Shown here: piece after piece, positions 25,103 to 56,165 of the stretch
Numbering within the stretch: the first letter of the stretch is position 1
Layout: every line of letters starts with the position of its first letter
Assembly: GCF_039555335.1 (NCBI RefSeq)
Contig: NW_027305501.1
Coordinates: 911,501 to 975,500 of the forward strand
Source of the DNA: Amphiura filiformis
Taxonomy: Eukaryota > Echinodermata > Ophiuroidea > Amphilepidida > Amphiuridae
Direction of reading: 5' to 3'
DNA: 64,000 nt
Position numbers and translations under genes: made by a program
The notes under the pieces: generated by a model
Database searches by the model: none
What the model saw: only the letters and a program-made list of their open reading frames with translations
What the model was told of the DNA's origin: nothing

Positions 25103-25986
25103 AAGCCCTTTCGCAATTGCAGAATCATGATGCATTAGGCTTATGAAAGTCAATTCCCAGTTTCCCGTTACATTATTTTTCATGACTGTGTAGGTGACCA
25201 TTGCATTATTCATTATTTTATACCATTTCATTATTGCATCTGTTACAGGTGTAAACCAATAACTACCCATGTATGTGATAAATCACAGTTTGTAGTTTAC
25301 AGATCGTAGTTTACAACCACATGAAGGTGATTGTACAACTATTATCAAAAGTTCCACCATATTTTTTACGGGATGAGATCAGAGCAGATCAAAAAGTGCG
25401 GGACAGAGAATTGAGTAGGTATTCATTAATAATTCATTATTTAATAACCATATTATCATGCTCCTACTGCAAAGAAAATCCCTGAAAATCAACAGAAAGA
25501 GATTTATGATATATTTTAAAACCACAATTATTTATTTGTATGTTAAAGTTTGTTAGAAATCAATATTTTATTCAAAATAATGAAATATTTGGCCAGCAAA
25601 TTGTTTTGAGCGGAGTAGGGTAACGGGAAACTGGGAATCAACTTTCATTAGCCTTATGGGTAATATTTGCAGATTTTTTTTTTTTGAGATGAACACGAGG
25701 ATGCAGTGCGTTTGCAATGGCGGCGAACTTTGCACATTTCCTTCAAAAACATATTTTTGTAAAACATTTTTTATTCATTCCTACATTAATGTCAATATTT
25801 CCTGTGAAATACAATATAAGGAATGAAGACCAAACTGTCACTTTTTTATGCAAACGTCAAAGTTCACCCCATTAAAAATGTAAAAATGTACAGTAGCCTC
25901 ATTGACATTGTGTTTATAAATTTCCAATACAATCGGCAAATATTACCCATAATGCACCATGATCTGGAATTGCGAACAGGCTTATA
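25103..25986. mobile_element. MITE (TTCGCAATT ends) split by a Harbinger insertion
   Basis: The left end GCCCTTTCGCAATTGCAGA and the right end (inverted) GCCTGTTCGCAATTCCAGA are followed by ATCATG(A/G)TGCATTATGGGTA, which on the left is interrupted after GCATTA. Removing 25138-25653 plus one TTA restores the arm. The interior matches 46240-46527, so this and 45567-46527 are one family. Confidence 0.75.
25138..25653. mobile_element. PIF/Harbinger-like MITE nested in the 25103 element
   Basis: The ends GGCTTATGAAAGTCAATTCC and GGCTAATGAAAGTTGATTCC (right end inverted) continue to CAGTTTCCCGTTAC. TTA is duplicated at 25135-25137 and 25654-25656. It is 516 bp with no coding capacity, and its termini resemble those of the 21552 element. 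Confidence 0.85.
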
Positions 25987-28363: not shown

Positions 28364-28660
28364 GTGAAAAGAACCGAATACAAATAAATGAATAAATAAA
28401 CAAATACATAAATAAATTATTATTAACAAATGAATCAATCGATCAATCAACAATTAATTCAACCCTCATCAATATTTGGCCAAAATAAATAAAACTTCAA
28501 GGTCGATGCGAATGCGTTTGATCAGTAACGTTCACAGACCTGGACAAACTAAACTTTTTATTTAAGTGACTGGAACGGTAACCTTTTCCAAGTCTCACTT
28601 TGGCTTTACATCCGCATGACGTGAAAAGACAACGTAAAACATGAAAGTAGGCGCAGGCCC

Positions 28661-28805
28661 CGGGGGGACTTGTATTTCAAGGTGGACACCATGCATGCTC
28701 ATGTAAAAAAAAACCAAGTAAAAAGGGTTGTTTTTCAGCATTGGGCAAGTACAGCGCTGTAACTGTTTAGGGTGAAAAAAAAAAAAAAAATCAGGAAAAA
28801 GGGTA
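28661..28805. mobile_element. Left half of a Mutator-like MITE split by the giant transposon
   Basis: It starts CGGGGGGACTTGTATTTCAA, preceded by the 9-bp CGCAGGCCC (28652-28660). It matches the first third of the intact copy at 55120-55567, then breaks off at TA/CACTG. The right half resumes at 49074. Confidence 0.9.
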
Positions 28806-28813
28806 CACTGAAA

Positions 28814-29250
28814 AAAAAAAAAAGGTGTCATTTGACACCACAAGGGGTGTTCAGATTTGGGTCCTCAGGCGAACATCCAAAGGTGTCACAGTGACACCTT
28901 TGGAGTGTGGCATGACACCTTAAGGGTGTCTATTTGCTCTTGACACCTTTGGATGATCACCTGAGGACCCATTTTTAAGGGTGTCAAATGACACCTCTAG
29001 AGGTGTAATGATTAACCTTTTAGGGTGTCCATTTGCTCTTGACACCTTTAGATGTTCGCCTCAGGACCCATTTGCAAGGGTGTCAAATGACACCTCAAGA
29101 GGTGTTATGGATAACCCTTTAGGGCATCAATTAACTATTGACACCTTTGGATGTTCACGGAGGACTCACAGGGGTTTTGGATGTTGGCTCGAGGACCCAT
29201 TTTGGAGGTTTCAAAATAGACGACTTGAAGGTGCACAAAAGGTGGATGTT
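28814..29250. repeat. Left subterminal array of GGTGTCA/TGACACC units
   Basis: Three to four units of about 130-150 bp each contain GGTGTCA...TGACACC pairs and the segment CACCTTTGGATG...GAGGACCC. Such subterminal repeats are usual transposase-binding regions in CACTA-type elements. Confidence 0.85.
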
Positions 29251-31129
29251 TGCATCCATTTTGTGATTTGCAGCCTATCTATATACCTATAATGAAGGGT
29301 ATAAGGCATGTTTCACATGAATGTTACCAAAAGGCATTGTTTTATTGTAGAGAAAAACTATAAATTGATTGATTTGATACTTGTAATCAAGAAATAAAAA
29401 AAAAACTGTGTTGTTTTGAATTCTATCTTTAAAAAGTGTTTCTAGGTTCAAATGTGTTGGTAATGTTACTATTTTTGGACAGAGTATGGGAAAGTTCTGT
29501 CCAAAAAATATTACCCTTAGCAATATATTCTACATGTACTAGGGATTTAATTTTATCTGACAGAAGGACAGTGTGTTGAACACCACTTTCTGTGATACAT
29601 TGACATGTAGTTTAATATCCAATTACTGACTTTGTACATTAATTTCTGATAAAAACAATAATTTATGATGAAGATGACTGCTAATGTTACTTCTTGGACA
29701 GAAGTTCCCAAAAGTGGGTAAAATACTGTGAAACATGCCATAACTATTTCCACACGACACTGAAAATAATCAGACACACAGTTAATTTATATTGCTGATG
29801 AGTACAATGTGTATTTCATTGCCAATTAAACTCTTCAGAAGTAATGTCCTTAGGTCAGAGAATAAATGTAGCTGCTGCCATGCATTCGTCTCAGTATAAC
29901 ACAGGCGCTACATTTCTTTTGAGCGGAACCCAAGAGCGTCACATGAAATTGTATTTAGGGGTGAGACAGCCTGAAAAGTGGACCTAACCCTCTTGACCCC
30001 AAAAAAGCTGACTATAGAAGTGAACCTTATGGCTGATTTGGGAAGGTGCTGTTGTGTACCCGTTAAAACCACTAAGTGAAAGCCGAGTGACTCAATGACA
30101 AAGATAATGGTATTGCGTGTTGCATATGAAACAATGCATGGCAGAGGCTGAAAACAATTCTTATTGTTAAATTTAAATTCATAGTCCATAGTAAGCTGTA
30201 ACAGTGTTATTTGTCTAATACCTCACTGCTGGAAAACCATTGCAATAAGATTTCAGTAACTTTCTCAAGTACTTAAGAATAGTCAATGTACTTCTATTCA
30301 AAAACCCTCCTCCACTGAGTCATAACAGCAAATTACTTAAAATGATTACAACTGAAGTATTTTTACTTTTATTATAATTAAAAGTTTTAGAATGATTAGG
30401 TAAAAACAACAACAAAACAGTTTGTTACAGCTTCCCGCACGCATAGCTTTAGAAATCAGATTTTGAGCGCATCGCTCTTATTTTCCAGGATTTTGTGTTT
30501 TTATTTTTATTTGCCTTTTTACTAAAAAAAATTCATAGCGCTTAGGGTTTTTGACTAAAGGCTCAGTCACAACCGGCGCACGTCCTCTCGTCTTTCATTG
30601 GAACGCCTTTTGCAAGTCTTTCTGATGACTTCTCTACGACCTCCATGACCACCTTCCACCCAAAAGACGTAGAGGACGTCCGCCCAGTTGTCACCAAGCC
30701 ATAAGGAAAGCTGAGACAAACTTTTTTGTTTTACTTGGCCTTCATCAAGCACAATTGCGGAATGGTGATAATCTCCACAAAAGATGTGTACAGGTGCAAT
30801 AATTCTGACCGAAAGGCTCATAAAAAGAGAAATCCTAATTTAAAATATGAATAATATTGTGACTTATGTTCAACTGTCAACTTCTAATCCCATCAATAAT
30901 TGTAATGGGTGATTGGAATGTCCATAGGTGCATTTAGACAAATAATCCATAAATATTGAACAAGCACGATCATAACTTCTGTTCAATACTTATAGTAGAA
31001 AATGCTATGCATGACTTCAAGAAATATTTTTTTACCAGATAGTAAGTTGAGACTGATCAGAACAAGGGCAATTAATACAAAGCAACTTTGGATACAATTT
31101 AACAGTTAATATACATTATAAACTAAAGT
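29251..31129. other. Interior of giant transposon, no gene seen
   Basis: AT-rich sequence without recognisable coding. TTTTTGGACAGA and its inverse TCTGTCCAAAAA form a small hairpin at 29469-29505. Confidence 0.4.
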
Positions 31130-31297
31130 GGGCCATACACGATCAATTTTATTGAGGCAATACTCCCAACGGGGGCCATCTCATAATTAATGTGTCGTCA
31201 CTTTTGGGCATTGAGAAATCCAGCGGAAAGGGTATCTGTTTTACACATTCTGAGTGGCCATCTCGGAGTATTGCCTCAATAACATTGATCATGGGCC
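31130..31297. repeat. Hairpin MITE (GGGCCAT ends)
   Basis: GGGCCATACACGATCAATTT and, inverted at the right end, GGCCCATGATCAATGTTATT continue to TATTGAGGCAATACTCC in both arms. Confidence 0.75.
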
Positions 31298-31406
31298 TCT
31301 TAAGTAGTAAGTACTTCCAAGTTTCAACAAATTAGTGATACAAATTACAATTTTACTTCAGCTTATTTTTATCCTTGTTAATAAACATTCTTCAACAGGC
31401 AAGACA

Positions 31407-31753
31407 ATGGACTATTCCATTTGAAATCCCCCCCTCTTGATGTTATTTGTACCTCAATTCTAGTTGAGATACACAGAGTCTAGATGGAAATATCCTCATG
31501 TGTCATCTCAATCTGAACTTCCAGTTGAACACTGTGCAATTTTCACATTTACCTGCATTCCGGACGATGCCCTATGAATAAAGTATCTTTGAATTAAAAA
31601 AAAAGTTGGGAACATTTGAATTCCACCGGAAAGTATGGATTTCAAATTGATAAAGTTTGGATTTTGTTGGATCTGTAATGACTTAAACTGACAATTTGGA
31701 TGGAATTCCACAATCTTATACAGGGAGGTGTGGATTTCAAATGGAATAGCCCA
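31407..31753. repeat. MITE with GGACTATTCCATTTGAAATC ends
   Basis: GACTATTCCATTTGAAATCC (left) and GGATTTCAAATGGAATAGCC (right) are inverted. A further ATGGATTTCAAATTG copy lies inside. It is non-coding. Confidence 0.75.
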
Positions 31754-32329
31754 ATTTGAACAAATAACTATAAGGTCAAACTTTTGTACACTTGCCCCTC
31801 CGATTTTGCACTTTTTCTCAATTGCTAATTGCAAATGATTATGTTAATAAAGCCAGCTATTTATATTGCAATAAGAACTTTCAAGTTTCATTCAAATTGA
31901 AGTGACATTCAAATTTCAATTTTATTTCAGCTAAATTTATCAGAGTTAATACACACACTCTTGAGGTCTACAGCCAATCCATTTGAAGAAATGAAGTTGC
32001 TTGACATGATTCACAACATCATCCCCACACTTCTTGTTGTTGGTTTGTTTTCTGTTTGTTTTTTGTTTTTGGGTTTTTTAAACATATTGTGATTTTGGTA
32101 ACAAAATGTTGAGTTTTATTAAAATTCTGTGGTGAAATGGGTGCAAAAATCTCATGTATGTTAGGAGAAATCATCCAAAACACCCCAGCAAAAACACTGC
32201 TTGAAAATGAGAAAGTGTGGCCACCACACTTTAAACAAAATGATAACTCAGTCTGCCGCCTGGACAACCAATTCTTTAGAAATGCTTAGTCGCGCTAAAA
32301 GTCGATCGATACATGTAAAAATCAGCACA

Positions 32330-33368
32330 GTTCAGAGATACACCTTTTTGCTATGAAATTAATTTTCTCGGTCAAATATAAAGCAATATTTTTTCTTTTC
32401 TTCAGTAATGTCAGTTAAAAACTTGGTGCTTGGATATACATTTTTTTTAAATCCTGGTGTTAAAATTAAGCATCAAATTGTGTCTTTTAGTGTGATATTT
32501 TGATTTTTATAGGCCTTGAATTAAGCCTCGACAGCTTTTTACGGAATTCATGTTTTAGCGTCTCAAACTAACATAGTTTGCTAAAGAAAGATATTTCCCA
32601 CCTCTGTAAAGCACATCGTGTGGGTCTATATGTTATAGTTTTGTCAGAATTTCCGTTTTTGTTTTACCCTTTTTCCATTCAGTCTCCGAAAATGTCAAAC
32701 TAAGTAAAAGTAGGCAATGGTGAGTACTTTTATCTCGAGAGCAACCATCAGAAATAGTCGATATTTCCTTTGTTGTTATCCAGGTCAATTTTTCATTGAA
32801 AGCAAATTGCCCGACCAGCGATTAAATCCCCAATTGGGTGTTCTGGTTAAACATGATCAGTAGGAGCGCTATAGGTCTGGGAATTTCTTTGCTAAATTGA
32901 AGTTCTGGCAACACTATAGCCATGCCGGTATTCATATTAAACCCAGGGATATCGATCCACAATGCTAGTACTAGCCTTTAGATTTCACGTGTTGATTTAG
33001 ACATTTTTTTTCAGCCGACAGTGAAAGATGGTGAAATCAAAAGCGGAAATTCTGACAAAACTATGATATATAGCTCACGGTGATGTGCTTTAGAAAGTTG
33101 GGGAAAATCCTTCATTAGCGAACTATATTACTTTGAAAAGCTAAAAGGTTGATCCAAGAAAAAGCTCATGGGCGAGCTGAAGCCTATAAAAATCGAATAT
33201 CTTACACTAAATGACTGAATTTCAGGCCTAAGTTTAACACCAGGATTTAAAAAAAAAATCAGTATCAAGCATTATAGTTTTTCCAGCCATTTACTGAAAA
33301 AATGAAAATTATTGCTTTTCATTTGGCTGAGAAAACAATTTTACACTGAAAAGGTGTAACTCAAAATT
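32330..33368. repeat. ~1.0-kb hairpin element
   Basis: The left half (ACACCTTTTTG..., AAATCCTGGTGTTAAA, TATAGTTTTGTCAGAATTTC) recurs inverted in the right half. The symmetric centre is near 32850. It lies inside the giant transposon. Confidence 0.7.
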
Positions 33369-35378
33369 TTCTCATTTCAATACCAATTTCGATCGTTTGT
33401 ATTGCTTCATTAAATGACTGAGTGAGCCTTGCAGAACAAAAGAATCGGTTGTGCAGGTAGCTGACTGAACTGTCCGCATCAAAACGATGCAGTTGTTGGC
33501 TGGCACATATAACTGCTTTTTATAGTAACAGCCATGAAAATCATCTATCCACATTATCCTTTTTATTGTTGAAGGGAATATTGAGAACATATTGCCATTA
33601 TCAATAGAAAGGTTATACAAGTATGGGCTTTGCTTACCATCTCAAGTGGGGACTAACTAACTGGTAACAATGAGCTTCACACCTCATTGACGTCAATGCC
33701 TCGGAGTCGCCACTCATATGATGGGTTTGCATTTTAACAGTCAAAATGGGGAACATTTGCCAGTAGACAACTGTATCTTTTTGATATGGAAAATAACATA
33801 AGCATAATGTTCTGTTATTACTTCAAAGCAAGTTACAAGTTTGCAATTTTTTTTTTCACTTTGAATGAGACATTTATAATTAGATGAAAACTGACTTTAT
33901 CTGAAAGTTTTAACAAAATTCATTTTCCAAAAGTTTCATGTCACCTGTAAGTTCAACTTTTGTACACTCAATACAAAATGTCACATTATGTTCATAAAAG
34001 ACATTCAACAGTGCCAAAGGGCACAGTCAGTGGAATGAAATATTAGTTCACAGTTCGCACAAATATATCTGTCCAGTGTCCATGCATATGTTACAGGTAT
34101 AGCTTTGTTATTATGCAGTGCAGTCACTGGTTTGGCATCTGAACAACCTTAAATTCTAAAAATTCTCTCATAGTATACCAAACAGATGCAAGCTCCATCA
34201 TGCTAGAAAGCAGCAACAATAATGTGTAAACACCACAAAATAAGAAAATTCTGTACATTTTGCTTCACACATTAACACAACTGTTTAAATTTTAGACTCC
34301 TTTGATATTTGCAATAGTGGATGTTACATGTATCTCCTACTTGAAAAAAAAACCCTTGTAAAGGTGCATGTTCTGATTTTTGCACATGGTGTTTCCTACT
34401 TTACATTGAGGCCCATCGCCAAAACAGTCATTCCAAATTTTGAGTGAAATCGCCCCAGTGGTATTCATACTATCCGCAAAAATGTGTACTTTGCTGTCCC
34501 ATAGTAGAAGACTGTGGGAATCGAAAGTGTGGTAACCACATTTTTGTGGTAATTAGCCACTTTTTTGTTCATAACATCCAAATTAAACAGAATTTGGGCC
34601 TAAAATTTCACCACGGTAATGAGAAAAATACAAGCTTTCTACTGATACCCAAATCTCAATTTTCATGGGAGAAAGTTGAAGATGATTTTAGTGATCTGGT
34701 CAAGCACCTTTAACTATTGCTTAAGCAATACATCTACACTTAACTGCAATATTCTGGAAAATGGTAATTCCAAAATTTCAAACTATTAAAATTCTTAAGA
34801 ACTTTGTTGCATAATAAAAGATGTGTACAGGCAAGCAAAGCCATAAATTGAATTCTATTTGATATTATTTTTCCATAAAGATGCAGCACATTCAAAGGGC
34901 CCACTATTATAGTGAACACAACTTGTCTCTGCAGATTTACTCAAAACAGAATTTTCCAGGCTTAAAAAAATGAACCTTGTTTTCAAAAATTGATCAAGGC
35001 ATTCATTTCTTTTTTATATACTTTGATCTCTTTTAAAATTTTTAAAGGCTCACTGACTAACATTGAAAATCGTAACATTGAAACATCGTTAATTAATACG
35101 ATCAACTTTTATTACCTGACGCGAGGGATCAAAACCTCTTAGCTATACAGCAAGACTTTTTAATTTTCATCCATAAGTAAACCCTAATCCTGCTAAATTA
35201 CTGTGCTTTGGTCCACAAATTCAGAACACTATCAGGTGTCCTGGTGCGGTCAACCAATTTGGCAATAAACTTCTGCATAAAGATTAATGTCTTAGAGTAC
35301 TGTGGAGGGTAGCTAAGATGAAAGACATAGTGTACCCCAAGAGCCCCATGTATGCTTTATCAAGGGAATACCACTCCC
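33369..35378. other. Interior of giant transposon downstream of its genes
   Basis: No exon is recognised. An 89-codon plus-strand frame at 34444-34713 resembles no family I know and is probably chance. Confidence 0.4.
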
Positions 35379-36600
35379 CTATTTTGACCTTCTCCACAAA
35401 TATCTGGTATGTTGATTTGGACATATCCTTATCCCGTCCTTATCATTTACCAGAATAACAGCCGATGCACTTGCTGGTGATGTGGAGAACTGCATAAAGC
35501 TGCTGATATCTTCATTCAAATGGCCTGGTAAGGCTAGCAATGCAGTGTCTGTAAATTGTAAAATTATAGAAGATAAAAACTTAATAATAAAGCAAATGTT
35601 AGGTTTCCCACAAATACATGCTGAAATGGCCACAAAGCAACAAGAACAGTATTGGTTTTACTACCACTGTGCCGCTATCGTATACAATTCAATCCTGTCT
35701 TAAATTTCCACATTCTAGCCTGTAATTTTTGCCTTATGAACTAGAATTGAAACTACGGGTATTCAGGCACATGTCAGAGGGACTTCAAAAGTAGTGTTCA
35801 GCATCACATCCACTTAGCATCTGAAGCCATGTTATATCATCTCATATAACACGGCTAGGAACCAATGAAATTTTAAGAACTGTCTAAAGTGTTTAAAAAT
35901 TCTGCATATACATGTACTAAGGTTGGAATCTGAATTTCAACCACGGTATAGAGGCCCTGCATGAAATTATCGATTGGCTCCAAACAAAGGATTTGAGCCG
36001 GTGTCCTTCACCGTAGTTATGGCGGAGTGCAGTCCATTCAATCAAATGTTGTCATCAACCTATTTGATCATAGTGCAGGGTTATGTGTGTGAGACGAACT
36101 GTCACGGTAGATTGCAATCATGCTTTTGTTGAATGCATTCGAGTAGTCCGCCATATTTACGGGATGATACGTCACATGCAAGGCCTGGATATCAAAAAAT
36201 TGAATTTGATTGATTTAAATTATGAAAATGTTCTGTCAATTAGGTCTTTTGCACTCCCATTTGTGTATAAGTTTTATTTAACAGAATGTTCAGCCTTACC
36301 CTGTTTACTGTCCTGTTTCATCCATCCTGGAGATTTTGTTGGCTGCCGCATCTGTGATATGCTGTGAAGAACTTCTTTAATGTCCGGTTCCTCTATGGTT
36401 TCATATAGGTTCACTTCAGTAAGCCTGTGAAATTCTGCCATGATCTGCAAACAAAATTATTATAGAATTCTATCTTATCTTCTATGACTGGGGACGATCC
36501 GTTAGGGGGTGGTAACCCCTCTGGTTTTACAAGGGTTACATAAACTCTTCATCCTTAACATTTACATTCTTACTTATTGTGACAATCCCTTATGGGGACT

Positions 36601-37006
36601 AAGGCTGTTGTCGACATGCCGTTTGTCGACATGGCCTGACATGTCAATATAATTTCCTTCAATTCAACAAAAGCAAACATGTCATAATGGGCTTGACAAG
36701 CTGAAGGAAAACAGCGGCAACTAGGACTCCAAAAAGAAGTAATTTACAGTTTGATTACAGTATATAAGGTCCCATTGTCAAAAAGTTTAAAACCACATGT
36801 TTTACTTTGTGTATTTGTAAACAGGTAAGCTTAACCTAAAACATACATATGAACTATTTAAATCGAAGTTTATAATTTTTAGAGCATGTTTTTTACAAAC
36901 CAAAATTTGAAATATGTCGACAACTCCACATACATGTAGACATTATGCATCGAGATAAATTGATACCGACATGTTGACATGAAAAACATTTGCCGACAAC
37001 AGCCTT
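36601..37006. repeat. MITE in an intron of the SAMD3-like gene
   Basis: AAGGCTGTTGTCGACATG at the left faces GCCGACAACAGCCTT at the right. Several GTCGACA words lie between. It is inserted in intron 4. Confidence 0.7.
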
Positions 37007-38012
37007 AATATATGAGACCCATTGTACATACCTCATCTGCACAAAACAGCAATGGATACTTCTCTTTCACGTCTTTAATCGACATAGCTCCATCCACTAC
37101 ATCAACCCTACGCTACCGGAAAGTTTTCTCCATGCTGGTTCGAGTCAAGATGGGATCTTGCTGCTTCTTCTTCTTTGCATGACTAGCTTGCATTTGCTTG
37201 GTGAGAATGTTGATGCTAGTAGCATCTTCCCCTGCCCCCAATTCGGTTTAAAATTCTTAACGCACCATCGCTCATTTCTTTTTCCTTTGCCGCCTTGCCA
37301 TCTTCTGTTGGCTTCTTCCTCTTGTTAGGAATGTCCTCTTCTTTGTCACTTTCGTGCCTTCTTATATTGTTATTGAACTTCTCACGAAGTTTGGTTTTGT
37401 AGAAACCCTGCAAGTAAAGAAAGTGCACGAGAAATAGTCAGGACACCTTAATTAATATAAATTGGGATAAACACTTATTACATTAATGCTAAACTCAGTT
37501 TCGAAATAGAGGGGTTTAATTTACATGCACAAATGCATGTAAAGTTTGCTATGTGCATGCACATTTGGAGTGTGCACTGATATACATTTTGTGGGGTTTA
37601 GCCACTTTTTGATGGAAAAGGTTCAGTTGTGCATGTAACTTTTATTTTCTATTATTGATCACTGAAATCATTAAATCTAAATCATGTAATTATCAACATT
37701 GTGACCTCTCAAGTTAGTCCCCTGCTCCTAATAACATGGAGAGTGAAACTTCATAGATGGGGATGGGGTATTATACCCCTGCCCAGCAAAAAATTTGAAT
37801 GCAAAACAAGTGGAACACATATTTTCGCAATGCGTAAAATATCTGCATGGCAGTAATCCCCACATGTACACCTGCTGTCCTTCCATTAAAATCCATCAAA
37901 GCTAGTACAGGTATGTTGATGTAGCAACCAATATCCTAATTGCATACTTGACTATATTTCACTATTGTGTCCAAGTTCCATGAAAATCCATCAACGTATG
38001 TTGATGCAGCAA

Positions 38013-38200
38013 CCAATTCGCCGGTGAAGTGGTTACGTGAACTCCCTGGTAACTGGATCACGCTTTCTTCATAACAACAATAAAGGCCATATATACTTTG
38101 CACAGCAATCACATTGATCGTGGTTCAGAATTCGGAAAGCGTGATCCAGTTGACACGCAGATAAGACGCTTGCACGTAACACTTCAATGGTGAATTATGA
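38013..38200. repeat. Hairpin MITE in intron 3 of the SAMD3-like gene
   Basis: AATTCGCCGGTGAAGTGG and ACTTCAATGGTGAATT are inverted ends. Both arms also share ACTGGATCACGCTTTC. Confidence 0.7.
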
Positions 38201-38586
38201 AACAGAGGGTTAATATTTTTGTCACATACAAACAAACATATGTGTCATACGGTGCACGATTTATAGTCCCCTTTCCGAATTACTTCAGCATGGATGACAA
38301 GACCTGGTGATTTTGTACAAAAGGAAGAAAACCATGACTTCAAAAAATTGTCTCACTTACACTTGCATCCTGTCCCGCCATACCTCTCCCAAGATATGGG
38401 AATGTTGAGAGGAGTGCAGAAACCATTTGATCATACTGACTTGAATTTGGATATCTGAAAAAGAGGTTTACAAATATCTGTGACTATTTCTTGATTTTCA
38501 ATTTGGAAAAATAATAAACAACATGATAAAATGCAAAATTATGGTTATTATGGTTAAATTATTATTTAAACCTCTGCTCAACAATA

Positions 38587-38834
38587 TGTGACATGATCAA
38601 GGGGAATGAGTCACATGTCGACCCTGGTCAAAAATGAGTTTTACACATGTTTCCAAAAAGGACATTTAGAGCTCTCAGAAACTGAAAACCCCATGTTGAT
38701 CCAACTTTTCTTTGCAAAGTTATGTCAATTTATCAATCGCTGAAAACAATATAAAATAAAAGAATTTTAACACTTTCTTTGCTAATATCTCAAAATCAAT
38801 AATAGCGACATCCGACTCATTCCCCTTGTCACAT
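38587..38834. repeat. MITE family shared with 58464, in intron 2
   Basis: The ends TGTGACATGATCAAGGGGAA and the inverse of CTCATTCCCCTTGTCACA. The interior TTTGCAAAGTTATGTCAATT is the inverse of the 58464 copy. Confidence 0.75.
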
Positions 38835-41432
38835 ATATTCTTTTCCCGCTTTCTCTCTCTTCTTGGAATGTTTAGGTAGTTTCAGATTCCAAATTTAGAT
38901 TCTATCGCACTAAGGGCAAAATTAAATTCTAGTGCACAAACCGAAAGATTGAAGACCTTTCAAAAAATAAATAATATTAGCTTGGTAGAGTTAAAAACAA
39001 AACATGCAGTACATTAAAAACCTCAGTCCTGTAAATGTTGGACAGAAACATATGTGTTGAATGCAGAGGATGATTCAACACCGGTCCCTGTCATGCGATC
39101 GATGTCCCAACCCAGAGTGGGTCAGCGCTGTACTTAGCACCCGCCCGAGCGCTCGCGGGGGGCCGATTTTGCGGCGGGCGCCCTAATTTCAAGAAGGACC
39201 CGTCCGACTGGCCAGTAAGAATTTTGAGTGCTGTTAATTTTAGTATTTCGGGCTAGTACATTGTACGCATCGAATCGGGCTGGTAAGTTTTGCATGTTAC
39301 CGGCCCGACTGGCTATAATTGTGGGTAAAAGAATAAGTACAGTGCTGACCACGGTCAATGTGTACCCTACACGTAACTCTATGCACAAAATGTGAATGTA
39401 TACAATTTTGGAAACCGTATTTTCACCATAAAAAAGTGAGGCGATTCCAGATTCATCTTGACAGACGAGTACTTATGACTGTGAAGCTTATTCCCATGTA
39501 GTCAAAAGTGTATTCGCCTCTCAAAATTGACAAGTTTATTTCAGTTTCAAAACTCTTCCCACGGTTTTCAATGGCTGTTGCTCGCTGCTACATTTGTACA
39601 ACGGTTGAAATTTATACCACTAGTTTACGCAATGCATGACGGACAGGTCTTGATACATCCTGTGTGTTTAATGTGTCTCTGCTAAAACAATTTACAGCCA
39701 CATATTCAGAAGTGGTCAAAGTTGAAAGGCCCTACCCAATGTAATCTGAATATATTTTACTTACAAAGTGTACTTAGTTGCTTCTTCATATAAGCTTTCT
39801 AGTACTTTTGATCGGTCATGTCTGGTCAGTTTTTCTTGCTCCTTTAGTTTACTGAAGATAGCAGTTGAAAACATAGTTGATTTGCACCTGAAAGGGTATG
39901 GCCACTCACACACTCTGCAATGATCAAACAGAAATGTAACTTATTTTAAAAACTTGATATATTCCAGCTTCAAGTAAAGCCCTCCCTGTACTGTATGGCG
40001 CATAGGGCGGTGCCTATCGCCAATTCCATAATCCCGGCTAGGCAACAGGTCTGCTGAAAGCAGTTGAAGACTCAAAGAGAGGGGTGCACTTTTATGTGTC
40101 ATGTGCCTGTCAAACTACCCCTTATTTTTGGCAAATCCTACACCCATCGAGTCATTGACCTTGTTTTTTCACCATTTTTATGTTCAAAGTGCATTCTTTA
40201 ATAATAATAGCATTAATTTGTAAAAAAAAAAGTCTTAAAATGTTTAAACAGCCAAGGTTCCGCCTCTCCATCAATATGCAAATTTTGAACATTATCAGAA
40301 AGTTGCGGATCTTACTCTAGAAACTATCAATTGCTAACTTACACAGGCAATTTGAATCAAGGACTTTCATATGTTACACTTGATTGAAGTGCACATTTTG
40401 AATTTCCTGACTGCAGCCAGTACTGTATTAATCCCATAGAGAAACTGGCCACACTAAAATTGCTTGGGTGTGACTACCCCTACTTAAAATGAGGCTGTTG
40501 GGAATGCAAATTCCAGATCATATTGCATTCTGGTGGATATACATTCTTATTAAAATCCTCCTCTGTATATAAATAACCTTTATTCCACCTAATCACCACA
40601 CTCTTTAAAAAACTTGATAATTTGTTATCATCTCTGTTGATACAGTTACTGTAAAATCAAGTCAAACAACCAAGTAGAAGAATCCAAAAGATCAATATAG
40701 TCCTTAAATGAAATGTGGTTCTGGTTTGTTTGAGATAGAGGTTTAATTTATTAAGTTTATGGGGAACATTTAAGAATTGCATTACTGGCAGGTCAGATGA
40801 GAAATAACCAGTTCATGTATTAAGGACTTGATTGATTTTTGCATTGTTTCTTTGCTGCAAATTACAAGAACCATGCACTTACTTTTCTTTTGCTGGGATG
40901 GTTGATTTAGCATCACCCTCACCACTGGTCTTCAGGTCTTCAAACTCATCATCACTCACTGTGACAGGCTCGAGTGCTAGCTCACCATTTTCCATCTCTA
41001 CACCTGCGTCTGTAACTTCAGACAGGTCTTGTTCACACACTGGCTCTCCATTTTTCATCTCTTCACTTGCATTTCCAACTTCAGACTTCTCCAATTTCAG
41101 TTCTTCATCCCGGTAACTATGACAACTGGCACAGTTGTAACCATTCTCAATTTCAGCGCGAGGTGGAACCACTCCATCGATTTCGACATCAAGAAAGTCA
41201 TTTATCCAGCCAGATTCAAATATTTGGAATATTACATCATGTACTATTCCAAAATGTTCCTTTGCTTTCTTAAAGACGCCCATCCAGCACACATCATCAC
41301 CTTCCACGCCTATCAACTTGTTTGAATTGCCAAATGTGACATAAAACAGGTACTTTGCCATAACTGGTAAAGAAAATAACACTTGAAATATTAATTTCTG
41401 GTCAATAACAAACTGAAGTGTCATGTAAGTTC

Positions 41433-43895
41433 TCAGTCTCTATCAGCACTTACAAAGTGTTTCAGGACAATCAGTGACATGTTGTCCTTTTCATATATAC
41501 CGAGTGGATGGTAATCAAGAAGCTTCTCTACTTCAACTAGCAGTGATGTTGGGGATTCCTCAACTTGATGTGCATGGTAGTGTCTTACATATGTTAAAGT
41601 CTGCAGAACTGTGCAATGGAGGAGGTCCTTTCCATTCACATGAAATACAGATCGAATTTTACCAAATTGATACTGGTCATTGTTATATGATAATAAAACT
41701 GCACATCCACATGAGTACTTGACTCCACATTTAGTGCAACTGGCAGCTTTGAAGATATATTGTGCACCTGTGAGTACTGGTTGAAGCTGGGCTTGTTCAT
41801 CATCATGAGCGCTTGAACTCGAACTGCATTTCCCTTTACATACTCGACATCTGCTTCAAGTAGTTGGTCCTTTTCAAACTGTAGGTATTGCTTGAACTGA
41901 TGTCCGTTGCCAATGTAAGGCATATGTTCTTTCTATTTTTGCTTCTGTTCGCTATTTGTTTAAATTCATTGTGCTTTCTTTCCCATAAATTAGTACTAAA
42001 TGCACTAAGTGGTCCAAAAAGCTTTGTCTGCTTCAAGTAATGTAGAGTAGAGGGGTCCTCTGCCCGCAAAGCACCCTCAAAAACTTCGTGAAATGATTCA
42101 TGGAACTCTACAATTTTCTCTCCCATGTATTCAATTTCCCCACATTCATAAGATTTGGCACATATACACTCAACCATGTCTGCTAATTTCAAGTACAACT
42201 CCCACACATCGTTGCCCTCAGGTACCTTATCTCCTATTAACAATGGCAGCATGCGCATTAGGAGCCAAGTTTCAGCAATGGTTGATTTGATCTTAAATTG
42301 TGCTATCTGTTCTGGCATGGGAGGGATAGGGTTGCTTCTATCACAAGATGCATATTCAAATTGTTCAATCCTTTCATTCAGTAGTTTCAGACTGAAATGG
42401 CGATCTTGGACAAGTGAGCAGACAATAATGGCAAGTCTAACTGAAACTACTCCACCTTCAAAAAGGTCATGCGCTATATCTGAAGGTAATGAGCATACAA
42501 CATGGAAGTTTTCCAATTGATTAAGTGGTGAACGCCGTTTCACGCCGTATACTGATGATAGATGTGGATGAACTTCAACTGTGTTCGCCTGTTCATTGTA
42601 TCCCTCTTGATTTCTCCATGTAAAATCATCTTCTCTCAAACTCGTCTTCACTAACTCATTTGTACCAGTGCAGAACCTACACAATCTCAGTGAGGTGGAA
42701 AAGTTCTCTGGGAAACCTCCCATAAAATGTTGGGCCAAATTGTCTCCCACCACCAGTGCGAGAGTTCCATGAAAATGGAATTTCCGTCCATCATGATAGA
42801 ATTCTATACCATCCGCTTCCAATGTCTTCAGGTCTGAGATAAGTCTTGCCAAGATGACTTCCAACCCATAGTGTTTTAAGTCTGTTACTTTGCACAAGCA
42901 AGCAAGCTGTACAATGTGCTGTTTTGACCTATATTTGGGTTCCAAGTTCCCTAGAAGGAAATAAAATCCTCCTAGTTTATATTCTCCACGATTTGAAGGG
43001 GTTTGCAACTTTAAATTCGCCAAAATAAAGATATATTTGAAGTGCTTTAGGGTATCTTTTAAAGAATTCATGGTCATTATAAAGCTGAGCATCTGTGAAT
43101 GAAGAAATTCTTCCAGTTCCACATTGGTGTCCTTGGAAAACCTGAGCAAGGATATCATCATGTTGTAAAAGTGCCTTCAGACTTTGCAATATGGGTACAT
43201 ATTGGTAAGTATCTTCGGTCCTTTGACTTTCATTTTTCATTCCTAGCACAACTTTTTCTGGCACAACAAAGTGTGTGCTATTTCTTTTTATATAGTTCTC
43301 AAAGTTATATTGAGTATTGTACTTTCCTACTGCTTCAGCCAGGGGATCATTAAACTCGCTGATAATGTCATGAAGCTCTGGCACATCAATACCTTCTCTT
43401 CTACAGACAGTAGATACTTGAGAAGATAAATCACGCAACCTTTTTTCCATCATTTTTCTAACTTCTAGACCAATAAATTCACAGGCCTTGCCAGAAACCT
43501 TGTACTTTTCCCGAGCCTCCACAAATAAGTGTGAAACCAAATGTTTGTAATCAATTTGGTACTCTTCTGGTAATATCTGCGGCTCTTCTTCCTCTTCTTC
43601 CAGTTCCTGATGATCAGAATCTCCATCATTTGACTGGTCACCATTGCCAGGTAAATTCTGCAGATTTCTCCTGAGTGGCAAATGTTGATCAGCAAAATCT
43701 TTATGTTTGCTCCTAATATGATTGACCAGTTTTCAACCATTTTATAAGTTCTTCGCACTCATTGACACCACATGTAATTTTGAAATCACGGTTAAGAACA
43801 TGGTTATGTTTTAAATGTTTGATTAACTTATAGAAATGTCTGGATTCATAATCACAAAACTGACAGCCAAAAGCATCTTCCTGTTGATTGTCCAT
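41433..43895 (-). pseudogene. C2H2 zinc-finger DDE-like transposase of the giant element, frameshifted
   Basis: It would cut and move the giant element. From ATG 43895 the protein opens with a C2H2 finger (CQFCDYESRHFYKLIKHLKH). A second follows (CGVNEC...W(S)NHIRSKH), split over three frames. An acidic region and a long alpha-helical part come next. The core YLYFGEFKVANPF, KLGGFYFLLGNLEPKYRSK, LVVGDNLAQHFMGGF and LRLCRFC belongs to a transposase type common in invertebrate and fish genomes and similar to Plavaka/CMC enzymes. The Gly of YFGEF stands where I would expect a catalytic Asp. Further on are FGPLSAFSTNLWERKHNEFK and a C-terminal domain (FGKIRSVFHVN...HYHAHQVEESP). Frame changes lie near 43755, 43725, 43000, 41935 and 41680, so it is dead. 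A 5' acceptor (TTCATTTTCCAG) at 44045 suggests a spliced leader exon. Confidence 0.78.
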
Positions 43896-44259
43896 GGATT
43901 GAGTTCATTGCTTTAATGGTGTTCAGCTACTGAACCAACAATGTGTACACACTGTGAGACTAACAGCAACTGACCTGCTGCCCGACCTGCTGAAAGATTG
44001 GCTACAAGTCACCAACACCAACACCATCCACTGTACATGCAGACCTGGAAAATGAAGAAGAAAGATATAGGACTACTATATTGTATAAAGCATTTTGCTG
44101 TTAATGCTGGAGTTAAGAATTTAAGATTAACCATCTCAACCTGTTTTCCTTCTGATTTTCGGATAGGCCTGTAGGTTGACAAGTTCATTATACATGTTTT
44201 AAATATTTTATTCTTAAAAGTTAAACATTGTTATCCTAAACTTTGTTCAACATAGATAT

Positions 44260-44405
44260 GGACGTGATTGTGGTGTCATTTCCGGTATAGATTGCATTTT
44301 GTAATGATAAACTTTAAACACGCCAGCGTATTACGCGCGATTCCAAGCGCCTTATTGTTACTCGCTTGAAGTACATAACCTCGGGAAGTGACATCACGTC
44401 CAATC
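44260..44405. repeat. Short hairpin MITE
   Basis: TGGACGTGATTGTGGTGTCA and its partner TGACATCACGTCCA form imperfect ends of about 25 bp, including TTCCGG/CGGGAA. A GC-richer interior has CGTATTACGCGCG. Confidence 0.6.
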
Positions 44406-44825
44406 TCTATTATTTTTTTCAAAAACGAATTCTAGATAAATGCTGATGAATGTAAAAAATGTGTTTTTTTGCACTTTAATCAAATCCACTGCCAAAATAT
44501 GCAAAAGTGTTTTTTGCTGACGGACTCTGAACATTGATTGTGTAATACGCTCGCTTGTATTACGCAAATAAGTGCGGACAGTTGGCGGTGCGTACTACAA
44601 TTTTCTTTGACCCTGCATGCACAAAAGATACTGCTAAGGTATTCAATTTTTTAAACTTTAAATGTGTAGTTTGCATGTTGATAATCTCCAGTGAAAAAAT
44701 TTAAACATATTTACAGTAAAAAAATAGTGGTCTGTATTGGGTATGCAGGCTGCCGGGCTAAAGCATCGCCTTATGTACGCTCCTATACGCTTCGTATTAT
44801 ATGCATAATACATGTACAAGCATGA

Positions 44826-45412
44826 CATGAAACTTTCAATTTTTTTTGTATTGTATGAGTTGTAGATCTACTTGTGACCGATGAACGCATGATCAACGCA
44901 CTGTGTTTACTTGTTTGTGTCTGAAATTTTATAAATAGGGTTATACTAGTTGTTGCTTTAAATGGTCGATTTTGAGTCATTCTCATGATTTGTGCATCTC
45001 ATGGTAGGTGGATGAGGGAGCCAACATTGCGTGCACGGTGCAAAATTCATGAAAAATTAAAAAGTCGCCCACAACAACAGACAATCGATCACGCCGGCAG
45101 CAAATCAGGGCCCATCCTGGTGCATGCAAAGCAGTGAAATACGCTGTATAGTTAAGTCGCGCTACAGAAATTGATTATAGTGTGCCAGTAGTAGTAAAAC
45201 AATGATTTTATTTTTAGCAGGATCAGGATAGCGGACAAAACTTAGAATTTCACACCACAAATCATGAAAATGACTCAAAATCAACAATTTAAAGCAACAA
45301 CTATAACCCTATTTATAAAATTTCAGACACAAACAAGTAAACACAGCGCGCTCATCAGTCACAAGTAGATACAAAATCATACAATACAAAAAAAATTAAA
45401 ACTTGTCAGAAT
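44826..45412. repeat. Hairpin element with ~140-170-bp arms
   Basis: TTTTTTTTGTATTGTATGA, CTTGTTTGTGTCTGAAATTT and TTGAGTCATTCTCATGATTT in the left arm recur inverted at 45273-45412. Confidence 0.75.
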
Positions 45413-45566
45413 GACTTGCTGTTAGGCTCATTGGAAAGAGCTCATCAAACTTAGAACTAAAGGAAGAAAAATGTTTGTGTTTTAAAATTTATGTCAGGTG
45501 GTCTGTAGCTTACATGTATTTGCTTCTCGAGAAATAGCGATTTCCTAAAAAAGTATTTTAAATGTA

Positions 45567-46527
45567 TAAGCCAGTTCGCAAATTCAGAATCATGACACAT
45601 GGGAAATATTTGCGGATTTTTGGTAGATAAGGCCAAAAAAACATTGTTTGTTTGTCCACGTCCGACCGACCGTGTACCCTGGTCCCGACCCCAGACAAAC
45701 AAGTACCTAGACCAATGGCTTTGGTGCGCGTAGTGAAGCCGACACGGCTTAGCAAGGACTTTGACAAGGACGCAAGCAAGCAGATATGTTCGCGCTCACG
45801 GAACATGTCGCATTTGACGCGACGATAATGGCGCAAATGAGCGCGCCTTTCTCTCCAGACATGAACGCTTATTTCTCCGTGTCCGACCACCGACCAAAAT
45901 CACCTTGGATACGGGGCTTCACCTCCCGCTGTGCGCTGTGGTAAGTGATGGGCAGTCATAGGTCTAGGTGGTATTTTTTTGAATTTTTTTTTTTTTTGAT
46001 TTTTTTGTTTTTTTTTTGAATTTTTTTTTGGCATCGATGGGACATCATATAAAACAGTGGTTAGTATAAATTTTAAAAAAGAAAATGTAAAGAAAGTGAA
46101 CAGTATAACATGCAGAACCATCTCAAGAGATAAACCAGTAAAGTGCTGTGTGTTTTGACTTATTTACCAGTCTTCAAATTGTCAGTTTCAAGTGCAATAT
46201 CTGTTAAAAAAACATTTTTTTTTTTGGCCTAAACAAGAGGAAGCTACTGCAGTTTCAATTACAGCAAACTTTGCACTTTCCTCAAAAATATATTTCAGAA
46301 AATTGCTTGATATCATCAGTTCCTACATTATGTATAATATTTCCTGTAAAATATAAGACCATCGTTGGCATTTAAGACCAAACTGTCTGCAAAATTCAAG
46401 AACAACTTCACCAACAGGATGTTTTTTATGGAAACGGCAAAGTTCATCACATTGTAAATGTACAGCATCGATCGGTAAATATTACCTACAATGCATCATG
46501 ATTCTGAATTTGCGAACTTAGGGCTTA
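45567..46527. mobile_element. MITE (TAAGCC...TTCGCAAATT ends), second copy of the 25103 family
   Basis: TAAGCCAGTTCGCAAATTCA and, inverted on the right, TAAGCCCTAAGTTCGCAAAT continue through GAATCATGA. Its right part (AACTTTGCACTTTCCTC to the end) aligns with 25730-25986. It is interrupted by 45631-46229. Confidence 0.75.
45631..46229. mobile_element. PIF/Harbinger-like insertion, TAA duplication, inside the 45567 MITE
   Basis: The ends GGCCAAAAAAACA and TGTTTTTTTTTTTGGCC-like inverse are flanked by TAA at 45628-45630 and 46230-46232. Removing it joins the two parts of the host MITE as in the 25103 copy. No transposase is present. Confidence 0.7.
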
Positions 46528-46789
46528 TTGTAAACTAACAGACTGGAATCAGAAAAACCTTTCTTGTTACCATACACAAAAGGCTAGAGCAAATATTGTA
46601 CCGTCCAAAAAGGATTGTCAAGATGCAAGTCTTACAAAATGGCATTTCCTGAAAGACGTAAAAGTTTGTCGAAATTGGCCTACTTGGGCCAGCTTACGTG
46701 AGACCGGTAGTGTGAGCCGTTAACCCTCTCCTATTATGGGTCGTTGCCGAGTTCCTACGGGAAGATCATTTAAAACAAACAAACTAGAG

Positions 46790-47075
46790 GTGAAGGGAAA
46801 ACATATGGGAAATTACATGTAAAGAAATCAAATGAAGGAATGACGAACAAATGAATGAAGGAAGCAGGGAACAACAAAAGGATGCACGAAGGAACGAATG
46901 ACAAAAGAACAACAAAAAAGAATGAATGAACAAAATGATGAACGAGAAAACAAATGTATAAAGGAACGATGAACAAACCTCAAACAAATGACAAATGAAG
47001 GAATGAACGACAAAAGAACTAACAAAACAAGAACGAACGAACAAATGATGAACGAAAAAACAAATATAAATAAAT
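46790..47075. repeat. Degenerate GAAYGAAC/ACAAA low-complexity tract
   Basis: Irregular purine-rich repeats of GAATGAA, GAACGAA and ACAAATGA words. The long hydrophobic frames on the minus strand here are artefacts of this composition. Confidence 0.85.
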
Positions 47076-47136
47076 ACCCCCACCCATGACACACACACAG
47101 TACACCCCCCTACAGTACACAAGAAAACTATACTAA

Positions 47137-47330
47137 GCTAAAATAATAGTTTCTCGATCATGAGAGCTCAATAGGCACGCATAGCGCCTACCACACACGC
47201 TTTGGGTAGCGCTGCATTTCCTGTGCGTGCACAATTGATCGCGCTTTTGTGTCATTCCACTAAACTTCCGACATTACGCAGTGCACGCAGTACCTTCATT
47301 CTCTCATGATCGAGAAACTATTACTTTAGC
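47137..47330. mobile_element. Hairpin MITE, 4-bp duplication CTAA
   Basis: GCTAAAATAATAGTTTCTCG and the inverse of CGAGAAACTATTACTTTAGC extend to ATCATGAGAG. CTAA flanks at 47133-47136 and 47331-47334. Confidence 0.85.
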
Positions 47331-47603
47331 CTAAATGAGTCAGGATATAAATTAAAAAATTAGGCCTAAAAAAATAAATAATATTTTAAAAAGGTGATAA
47401 TTGGTATGCATAACACCAACAAATAGTACTACTACACACATACGGTACATCAACAAACACATTATTGATTGGATCACACGTCATTCGTTCACAACACCGG
47501 TCATGGCATGCATGCATGCATGATTTACTTACGACAGCCGCCATCTTGGATTTCTAGCAATCATGGCGATACTGTATTTTGATACCTTGGCAACGCAACT
47601 ATA

Positions 47604-47836
47604 GCCAAAATAACAAATTCTCGATCATGAGAGGACGTACCTTCTGCGTCAGCGTATTACGCGATCTCGCGACCTGCATGCCCGAACCTTGACCTTGCCT
47701 AACAACGATCGGGTGATTGGTCAATTCTCAAAAGCTGTGTTTGCGCAGTAAGCGCCGGTCTTTGCGTAGTACGCTCGACGCAAATAACTGTGCATACCCA
47801 AATTGGCTTTCATGATCGAGAATTTAATATTTTGGC
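47604..47836. mobile_element. Related hairpin MITE, 4-bp duplication TATA
   Basis: GCCAAAATAACAAATTCTCG and the inverse end share the TTCTCGATCATGA core with the 47137 element. TATA flanks at 47600-47603 and 47837-47840. Confidence 0.85.
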
Positions 47837-47846
47837 TATACCTATA

Positions 47847-48099
47847 GCAGGAATTCCAATTGAATGAATGTACGCAGCTTTCAATAGCGTGACAAATTAT
47901 TAAGTATACAGTGCAATGCACGCCAGCATGTGCAACTGTTCGCATGTAACGCGTAAGTGAATCCAACCATGCCAACACACTGCACTGGTTAGCATTGTAT
48001 CCAAGGTCGTATGCGTTCACGTTAGTACGCGATATACGATCGCGGATGGATCGAAAGTGCAGCTGTTGAAAGCTGCGTTCATTCAATTGGAATTCCTAC
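47847..48099. mobile_element. Hairpin MITE, 4-bp duplication TATA, adjacent to 47604 element
   Basis: GCAGGAATTCCAATTGAATG and the inverse of CATTCAATTGGAATTCCTAC, then GCAGCTTTCAA in both arms. TATA at 47843-47846 and 48100-48103. Only CC separates its TATA from that of the previous element. Confidence 0.85.
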
Positions 48100-48654
48100 T
48101 ATAACTTCCAGATCACCATGTTCCAATTTCAGTAAGAAATGATAGGCCTACATAATACAAAGACACTTTTTATGTGCTGAGAAAGGTTTATAATTTCATC
48201 GGAAGCAAAAATTAAATTCGGTGAACTTGCCTTTTCAGTTAATTTGTGCAGTAAAAGTCGGCAATGGCGCTGCGCTGTAGCACTTGTTTCATTAGATTTC
48301 ATTAGATTAAAAACGTGCTTTATTGACCGTAGGCCCTACCTTAGCTTTGCAACAGTGCACAAACAATCATCAATTATGATGGGGATTTCAGATTTATGTT
48401 AGTCTTGACAAGGACTTGATAATGATACTAGTACTATATAGCTATATCAATCAACCTGATTGGATGAGAGAACAATTTTCGCTTGTGGTATTGCTACGTG
48501 GTGAGGTAAGCTTAAAAAGTGTAATTTACCGAATGATCAAACACATGCTCATATGCCTGTCACCACTTACCACAATCTCAAAATAATTGATGATTGTTAT
48601 CTTTGGCACTGTATCTTTCTTAAAATACAATAAAAATGCAAGATTGAAACTTAC

Positions 48655-48780
48655 TGCCGCTGAAAAACAGTTTTTCTTCTTCGTCCCGACTCGCATGAGA
48701 TCGCTGATCATGCCGCCTCTCCTGATTGCAGACGAAAATGGAATTATATGGAACTCACGTGACAGCTGCGGGCGCGAAAT
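48655..48780 (-). promoter_or_regulatory. Candidate promoter/first exon of the giant transposon genes
   Basis: A GC-rich island at the right end of the giant element ends on the minus strand in a strong donor, GCGGCA/GTAAGTTT (after 48655). An ATG at 48711 opens 19 codons ending in phase 0. Both element genes run leftward from here and both begin at acceptors without upstream promoters (44045 and 41364). A shared 5' exon is therefore plausible. No transcript evidence is available. Confidence 0.35.
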
Positions 48781-48785
48781 TTGAG

Positions 48786-49066
48786 CACGCAAAGGTGTAA
48801 TTGAATGGCACCTTTGGGGTTTAGAGTCTCGCGGAGAAATTTCAGGGACACCCTTTGAGTGTAATTTGACACCTAGATAGTATTTATGACACCTTTGCAT
48901 TATCAAAACTTGTAGTTACGCCCTAGAGGTGTCATAAGTAGTATTCTAGATTCTCAGGAGCTATCAGAGTGGGGACTATTGACTCTTCAGAAGGTGTCTA
49001 TTGACACTTAACGAGTGGCATTTTTGTCAGTATCTCTAAAGGTGTCAAATGACACCCAATATTTTT
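48786..49066. repeat. Right subterminal array of GGTGTCA/TGACACC units
   Basis: AGGTGT, GACACCT and GGTGTCA...TGACACC words recur every 40-60 bp up to the T-run before CAGTG. They mirror the array at the left end. Confidence 0.8.
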
Positions 49067-49073
49067 TTCAGTG

Positions 49074-49383
49074 TATACTTTTCCAAGCAAAATACTTGCT
49101 TAGGGTACCAAAGTTAAATGACAAAATAAAAACGGGTGAAATAGGCTATGTTTGGCTTCTATCAGAAACATATGGTAGGGTAAAATATTAAGAAACATCA
49201 AACTACTAATATTAAACAAGAACCTGCATGAACATGAATTTTTACTTTCTAGTAGCGTTAAAAAAATGGCAAAATACTTGTTTAGGGTATGTTTTGCATG
49301 CGCTGAGTAATACTTGTTTAGGGTGCGTTTCAAGAGTCCATACATGAGCATGGTGTCCATCACGTAATGTAAGTGCCCCCCGG
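49074..49383. mobile_element. Right half of the split Mutator-like MITE
   Basis: TATACTTTTCCAAGCAAAAT continues the family sequence of 55120-55567 from where the left half (28661-28805) stopped. It ends GTAAGTGCCCCCCGG, then the 9-bp CGCAGGCCC (49384-49392) identical to that at 28652. Confidence 0.9.
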
Positions 49384-49392
49384 CGCAGGCCC

Positions 49393-54610: not shown

Positions 54611-54740
54611 ATAATAATATTAAAAAAAACTTTAAAAAAAAACCCTTTCCTAACACGCGGTCTCGATGATGATTGCAACAGAATCCATATTTCGCATGCG
54701 CCCATCTCCCAAAAGCTAACATAAAAACATAAAAGTCCCC

Positions 54741-55903
54741 AAAAATCCAAAAGTAACAGTGCCTAATTTGCATAGATCCAAAATGGCCGCTTATGCAGGG
54801 GATGAAATTTCAAATTTGGTCAAATCTTGCTAAACACCATACCAATGTATTCCTCTCGTCATAAGGATTCAGCAAAAGTATAGTTTGACCTATCTCCGAT
54901 GTACATTTCTTGAGTTATAGGGGAAAAGGTCAAATGTCAAAATTTGGACTCTGCAGGGGGGCAAAAAATGAAAAATTCTCCGATTTTGATTTTAAAAAAT
55001 GGTCTCATATTGTTCCGCTTGCAAACGCATATCTCAAGTGATTTGTTACCTTAGTAACATGGCAGAGAAGATCAAATTCAACAGAGCCGTATTGACCTTG
55101 ACCTATTTTGTGATGTTACCCCGGGGGTGGGGCACTTGTATTTCAAGGTGGACACCATGCTCGGGTACAGCAGTAAAAAGGGTTGTTTTTCAGCATTGGG
55201 CAAGTACAGCGCGCTGTACCTGTTTAGGGTGTCAAAAACGCCAAAAATCAGGAAAAGGGGTATATTATTATACTTTTCCAAGCAAAATACTCGCCTAGGG
55301 CACCAAAGTTTAATGGCAAAATAAAAAAGGGTGAAATAGGCTATGTTTGGCTTCTATCAGAACACATCGTAGGGTAAAACATTAAGAAACATCAAACAAC
55401 TTATGTTAAACAAGAACCTGAACATGCATTTTTACTTTCTTAGTGTTAAAAAAATGGCAAAATACTTATTGTTTAGGGTATGTTTTGCACGCGCTGAGTA
55501 ATACTCATTTAGGGTGTGTTTCGAGAGTCCATACCTGAGCATGGTGTCCAATGTAAGTCCCCCCGGGTGATGTTACCTATGTAACAAAACATCCAAAACA
55601 ATGCAACTTTTCGCATCTTGATTTCTTTTTGTCAAAGGAACAATTTGAGACCAGTTGGATTAAAATTGGAGCATATTTCCATTGTAAACGAGTGTGGACC
55701 CAATAGTTGCCCTTTGACCTTTTTGCCTATAACTCAAGAACTCATGTCGGAGATTGGTCAAACTATACCTTTTCTGTATCCTTATGATGAGAGAAAGATA
55801 TTGGTATGATTTTTAACAAGATTTTACCAACTTTGAAATTTCACCCCTGCATAAGCGGCCATTTTGGATTTATGCAAATTAGGCACTGTTCCACTACTTG
55901 GAC
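54741..55903. repeat. Large hairpin element split by a Mutator-like MITE
   Basis: CAGTGCCTAATTTGCATAGA...AATGGCCGCTTATGCAGGGG at the left is mirrored at the right end. The arms continue through TATAGTTTGACC...CTCCGA. The MITE at 55120-55567 sits near its centre. Confidence 0.8.
55120..55567. mobile_element. Intact Mutator-like MITE, 9-bp TSD TGATGTTAC
   Basis: The ends CCCGGGGGTGGGGCACTTG and (inverted) CCCGGGGGGACTTACATTGG lead to GGACACCATGCTC in both arms. TGATGTTAC flanks at 55111-55119 and 55568-55576. An 8-10-bp duplication is typical of MULEs. This is the unbroken version of the element split at 28661/49383. Confidence 0.9.
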
Positions 55904-56165
55904 TTCTGGTATTTTCCTTTAATATACTTTTCTGAAATGAATGGTGATTATAAATGGTTTCTGTTGCAATTAGTGGTGGGTTAAGCCATGATTTTCCATA
56001 ATTTGACTGGCTTAGGCCTAATACTAACTTCACCGCGCGCTTAAAAAAGAAAAGAAAGAAATACTAAAATGATGAAGCTGACCAAAATTCAAAACGGTAA
56101 ATAGCAAAGCAAACAAACAAAAATCATTAAACAAAGAAAAATATACTGCATATGAAAAGAAAAGA

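Follow-up and report, generated by a model that had tools for sequence, protein, structure and literature searches.

A probable CMC-group DNA transposon of 20 kb inserted within a Mutator-like MITE of Amphiura filiformis

Elements of the wider CMCT clade of DNA transposons as a rule have CA...TG ends and duplicate 2–5 bp of their target (PMC12730594), CACTA elements typically carry short subterminal repeats in both orientations (PMC8978399, PMC8195511), and some of them exceed 20 kb (PMC4938662). The clade of CNEST, a fungal element with a CMC-type transposase, is said to include unclassified transposases of diverse animals (PMC12810828). Here we describe an insert at positions 28806–49073 of a 64,000-nucleotide stretch of the Amphiura filiformis genome (contig NW_027305501.1, positions 911,501 to 975,500, assembly GCF_039555335.1), which is referred to below as the window. 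We regard it with high confidence as a decayed DNA transposon of the CMC group that entered by cut-and-paste at a TA, most likely duplicated in the process, within an older Mutator-like miniature inverted-repeat transposable element (MITE). A literature search, in which most matches were judged from their listing alone, returned no description of this element.

The original prediction held that a MITE found intact further along the window occurs here as two pieces 20.3 kb apart, and the alignment of 28661–28805 plus 49074–49383 to 55120–55567 bears this out. The left piece corresponds to 55129–55262 and the right piece to 55269–55566 (BLAST); on the intact MITE the two halves complement each other and almost meet. 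When joined, the halves are identical to it in 388 of 427 ungapped columns, and a further 43 columns contain gaps (113/132 identical for the left half, 275/295 for the right). The identical 9-bp outer flanks that had been predicted are present as well, with CGCAGGCCC on both sides, though registers of 7–11 bp also fit there and up to 11 bp can be fitted at the intact copy. Flanking repeats of 7–11 bp lie within the range of Mutator-like elements, and the features of a Mutator-like MITE, namely a 9–11-bp duplication and terminal inverted repeats, are present, together with a lack of coding capacity, which was judged by length alone. A single insertion with matched ends split this MITE. The presence of two separate MITEs, by chance or truncation, is ruled out by the way the breaks complement each other and by the 9 bp that the outer flanks have in common. 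As a clean before-and-after record, the MITE shows precisely where a large, decayed element begins and ends, without recourse to other copies. Inverted arms of about 205 bp (85%) at 54739–54940 and 55707–55909 bracket the intact MITE, which itself seems to sit within another inverted-repeat element.

The first bases of the insert are CACTG (from 28806) and its last are CAGTG (up to 49073); a TA lies just outside each end, and the insert has the CA...TG terminal inverted repeats that are a feature of the CMC group. When the left 34 bp are compared with the reverse complement of the right 33 bp, the first 12 and the last 16 bases match at 28 of 28 positions around a spacer of 6 bases on the left and 5 on the right, and the palindrome GGTGTCATTTGACACC closes both repeats. 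Three resampled windows scored 21/28 at best, as did the best of the unrelated sites in the actual window. The ends are further marked by the motif GGTGTCA/TGACACC, of which the window has 28 copies: the first 400 bp of the insert contain 12 and its last 400 bp contain 5, while 2 are scattered in its interior (at 43763 and 44272) and 9 lie outside it. Poisson probabilities of this clustering, with the other 11 copies as background, are 2.5e-23 on the left and 1.3e-8 on the right, values to be read as upper claims because the motif was picked post hoc with the ends already seen. Among the top counts listed, 400-bp stretches away from both ends hold at most three copies. Short repeats arrayed in both orientations next to the ends in this way are a feature of CACTA/EnSpm elements in the narrow sense. 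Since an inverted repeat of about 33 bp and the GGTGTCA motif mark both ends, the two belong to one element, on evidence independent of the MITE. An arrangement of two nested CACTA elements is ruled out by the end motif, which forms no internal cluster beyond the two scattered interior copies. The site at 33342–33357 (TACACTGAAAAGGTGT) resembles the end of this transposon but lies at one edge of a nested inverted-repeat element and lacks a subterminal array; the resemblance is taken as chance.

At the break, the left flank reads ...GGGTA before CACTG and the right flank reads TATAC... after CAGTG. A three-base comparison (GTA on the left, TAT on the right) gives no match, and the 3-bp duplication of narrow-sense CACTA/EnSpm elements is therefore absent. 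A duplication of TA is most likely, being the simplest reading of the TA on both sides of this single site. The prediction had placed the break at CACTG/CAGTG with a TA repeat; the ends and the outer TA are indeed there, but TA as a duplication is unproven, as the intact MITE is 8 bp longer at the break (TATATTATTATAC against TATAC). We do not take this difference as a strong objection, because short AT-rich tracts can alter in length; the empty site does not prove a duplication, however. The same two observations, a single site at which the TA on either side may itself belong to the repeat and the 8 extra bp of the intact MITE, would suit the same insertion by an element ending in TACACTG without any target duplication, or with a duplication of another length that was later obscured. 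We hold this unlikely, considering that the CMC-type elements CNEST (PMC12810828) and ESTA (PMC12730594) are described with TA duplications and that most CMCT elements are described as starting at CA (PMC12730594).

The insert need not have arrived at its present length. Six inverted-repeat candidates within it total 3,249 bp, and their removal leaves 17,019 bp; for two of the six, the window contains a similar copy at another place. The nested candidates likely arrived after the large element, and the figures suggest a length of about 17.0 kb at insertion. The order of events would be the MITE, then the large element and then, probably, the smaller elements. The original prediction, in which all of 28806–49073 came as one unit, is accordingly right that one transposon split the MITE but probably claims too much in extending this to the whole interval, given the six nested candidates. 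Its remark that the unit is very large for cut-and-paste does not stand, as the CACTA elements above 20 kb (PMC4938662) show. A more radical version of this history, in which a shorter element moved with these ends and the interior consists mostly of nested elements acquired later, or reflects faulty assembly, would account for the six candidates and for the roughly 12 kb to the left of the transposase-like gene in which Pfam scans found no domain or other recognizable content. This composite origin appears improbable to us: 17,019 bp remain once the candidates are taken out, the subterminal motif forms no further internal cluster, and the window contains no N.

The insert contains a broken transposase-like gene on the minus strand, made up of four open reading frames (ORFs) that occupy three frames in succession. 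We read them, from their arrangement, as one gene whose frame has changed three times or more; alternatively, though less probably, the ORF overlaps may hold very short introns. The longest ORF spans 446 codons, whereas 200 resamplings gave none longer than 222. An N-terminal candidate zinc finger of C2H2-like type in this gene gave a Pfam match to a ZNF462 finger below the cut-off (E 0.00058, 20 bits against a cut-off of 27). Transposases of the CMCT clade are described as carrying C(2)C and then H(3-4)H between the second D and the last E of the DDE triad (PMC12730594). The 446-aa ORF has CRFC (position 166) and HESFH (position 359), flanked by a candidate second D (145) and a candidate last E (399), as short, unaligned matches in one protein. 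Their order may follow the CMCT scheme. Further along the same strand, an uninterrupted ORF at 40882–41361 might encode an accessory protein. Six-frame Pfam scans of 28806–49073 revealed no domain above the cut-off that would indicate cargo genes.

Several observations weigh against the assignment to the CMC group: (i) the same six-frame scans, in which stops were rendered as X, detected no family above the cut-off, Transposase_21, a feature of narrow-sense CACTA/EnSpm elements, included; (ii) a sequence search of the PDB with the 446-aa ORF as query gave no match up to E 10; (iii) a clear first catalytic D was not identified in this ORF; (iv) the CRFC and HESFH matches are short and may be due to chance; and (v) the TA duplication is read from a single site, and there the intact MITE shows an 8-bp difference. 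The protein presumably resembles a common uncharacterized type of animal CMC-group transposase, compared with which the site of the first catalytic D would be changed here. That the element belongs to a non-CMC superfamily with similar ends, its transposase coming from another or an unnamed superfamily, would agree with a protein that has neither a family nor a structure match and with the weakness of the motif evidence, but we consider it quite unlikely, as the end sequence, the subterminal repeats and the protein layout all fit the CMC group.

The CMC reading is supported by the split MITE, the 28/28 match of the ends, the motif clusters at both of them and almost nowhere else, the CA...TG termini and the 446-codon ORF with its short candidate C(2)C and H(3)H motifs. 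We assign the element only to the CMC group in its wider sense because two narrow-sense CACTA features, Transposase_21 and the 3-bp duplication, are missing; placement within a family by the transposase is tentative. We propose the following model. In an intact relative, the transposase would bind the subterminal GGTGTCA sites, with its N-terminal zinc finger as the candidate module, and would pair both ends of the element. It would then cut beside CACTG and CAGTG and join the ends to TA. The present copy itself has decayed through frame changes and probably acquired the smaller elements.

Relatives of the transposase-like protein were sought in collections of viruses and prokaryotes, absence from which says little about animals. 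A protein-based scan of viral contigs (IMG/VR) found none, and in one of genome contigs (GTDB) 8 stretches fitted a pattern and 0 were confirmed. A degenerate DNA pattern for D-x-x-H-D-L-(L/F)-E-G selected one IMG/VR locus, L001, whose tblastn match (E 0.022, 26% over 81 positions) overlaps the pattern-selected place and was treated as chance.

Coordinates of the insert, its parts and the MITE copies in the window.
Feature	Position	Strand	Remarks
Left copy of MITE target duplication, CGCAGGCCC	28652..28660	.	7–11-bp registers possible
Left piece of split Mutator-like MITE, ends in TA	28661..28805	+	alignment to intact copy
Probable CMC/CACTA-like transposon, 20,268 bp at present	28806..49073	-	strand of transposase-like gene; ends, motif clusters
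Left terminal inverted repeat, CACTG...GGTGTCATTTGACACC, 34 bp	28806..28839	+	
Left subterminal region, 12 GGTGTCA/TGACACC copies	28824..29145	.	partly within 99-bp tandem repeat 28918–29165
Nested inverted-repeat candidate, arms ~340–350 bp	32335..33362	.	no target duplication established
Nested MITE candidate	38589..38828	.	inverted copy at 58475–58699, 86%
Uninterrupted ORF from ATG	40882..41361	-	downstream of transposase-like gene, same strand; no Pfam match above cut-off
Broken transposase-like gene	41436..43895	-	ATG at 43895; ORFs 43904–43716, 43732–42980, 43176–41839 (446 aa), 41855–41436
Candidate C2H2-like zinc finger, N-terminus of transposase-like gene	43800..43865	-	weak Pfam match
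Nested inverted-repeat candidate, arms ~150–160 bp, 84%	44831..45404	.	
Nested inverted-repeat candidate, ~0.9 kb	45565..46528	.	partly similar element at 25103–25986, outside insert
Nested MITE candidate, inverted ends ~33 bp	47134..47333	.	
Nested MITE candidate, related ends	47598..47840	.	
Right subterminal region, 5 GGTGTCA/TGACACC copies	48867..49056	.	
Right terminal inverted repeat, 33 bp, ends CAGTG	49041..49073	-	
Right piece of split MITE, starts with TA	49074..49383	+	alignment to intact copy
Right copy of CGCAGGCCC	49384..49392	.	
Intact MITE copy, empty-site reference	55121..55566	+	in this register flanked by an 11-bp repeat; terminal sequences CCGGGGG...CCCCCGG

Other features of the window lie outside the element. 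A match to UPF0240, the NDUFAF4 family, at 59561–59923 (minus strand, E 1.1e-6) is above the cut-off, and a second, weak one at 61327–61713 (minus strand, E 0.03) is below it; the two are perhaps exons of an NDUFAF4-like host gene. One RNA gene was found, a tRNA-Thr (TGT) at 61143–61217 (plus strand), by both ARAGORN and Rfam. The ORF at 16578–16946 (minus strand) has no Pfam match and presumably resembles the N-terminus of LATS kinases; together with the UPF0240 match it indicates an animal host. A weak reverse-transcriptase match at 894–1646 (plus strand, E 0.0077, below the cut-off) looks like a LINE-like remnant. Repeats comprise a direct repeat of 117 bp (97%) at 21548–21664 and 62009–62125, 40 kb apart, long near-palindromes at 2120–2748 and 19118–19482 (82% and 84% to their own reverse complements), and a telomere-like array of about 15 CTAACC hexamers at 12881–12968.

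The prediction knew of no named family with this combination of features; against this stand ENS1_Cis, with CAC...GTG ends and a 2-bp duplication (PMC6004678), and the TA duplications of CNEST (PMC12810828) and ESTA (PMC12730594). By analogy, the present element would work like these three, like TRC elements and like CNIRT6. CNEST of Cryptococcus neoformans is described with a TA duplication, 33-bp terminal repeats that start with CAC and a CMC-type transposase, but it is fungal and active, measures 7.2 kb and has CACGG ends, and the comparison is by description rather than by sequence (PMC12810828). On the same descriptive footing, the EnSpm-like ESTA elements of rust fungi have the TA duplication and a CMCT-type transposase, but their families are described with or beside a TET/JBP dioxygenase, a domain not found here (PMC12730594). 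In animals, the CACTA element ENS1_Cis of Ciona savignyi and related CMC MITEs have 5'-CAC...GTG-3' ends and a 2-bp duplication, the likeness covering the ends and, probably, the length of the duplication (PMC6004678). CNIRT6, a CACTA element of C. neoformans, shares ends that start with CACTG, but its description gives 3-bp duplications, 24-bp terminal repeats and 7.5 kb (PMC12810828). The TRC elements, SmTRC1 and its relatives, are animal and CACTA-related, with 2-bp direct repeats at 7 of 14 SmTRC1 copies; they differ in their CCC ends and in Transposase_21, which was not detected in the present element (PMC1636069). Plant CACTA/EnSpm elements resemble it in their CACT- ends, two-orientation subterminal repeats and known lengths above 20 kb, but they are described with CACTA ends, 3-bp duplications and Transposase_21 (PMC4158355, PMC4938662, PMC8978399, PMC8195511).

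As it stands, the element is a large addition to a known group, with ends not new in kind. We tentatively raise the further idea, which we think plausible but rather doubtful, that it is a complete animal member of a TA-target CMC lineage so far named only in fungi (CNEST, ESTA), about 17–20 kb long, with a putative subterminal array of binding sites and possibly an accessory gene at 40882–41361. If so, the unclassified animal transposases found in the CNEST group would gain from it a definition of how their ends are built and which target they choose. Should the element itself fall into the CNEST group, its ends and target site would be the first ones defined for animals in that lineage, as far as the literature examined goes, and it would also provide a consensus end usable as a search query.

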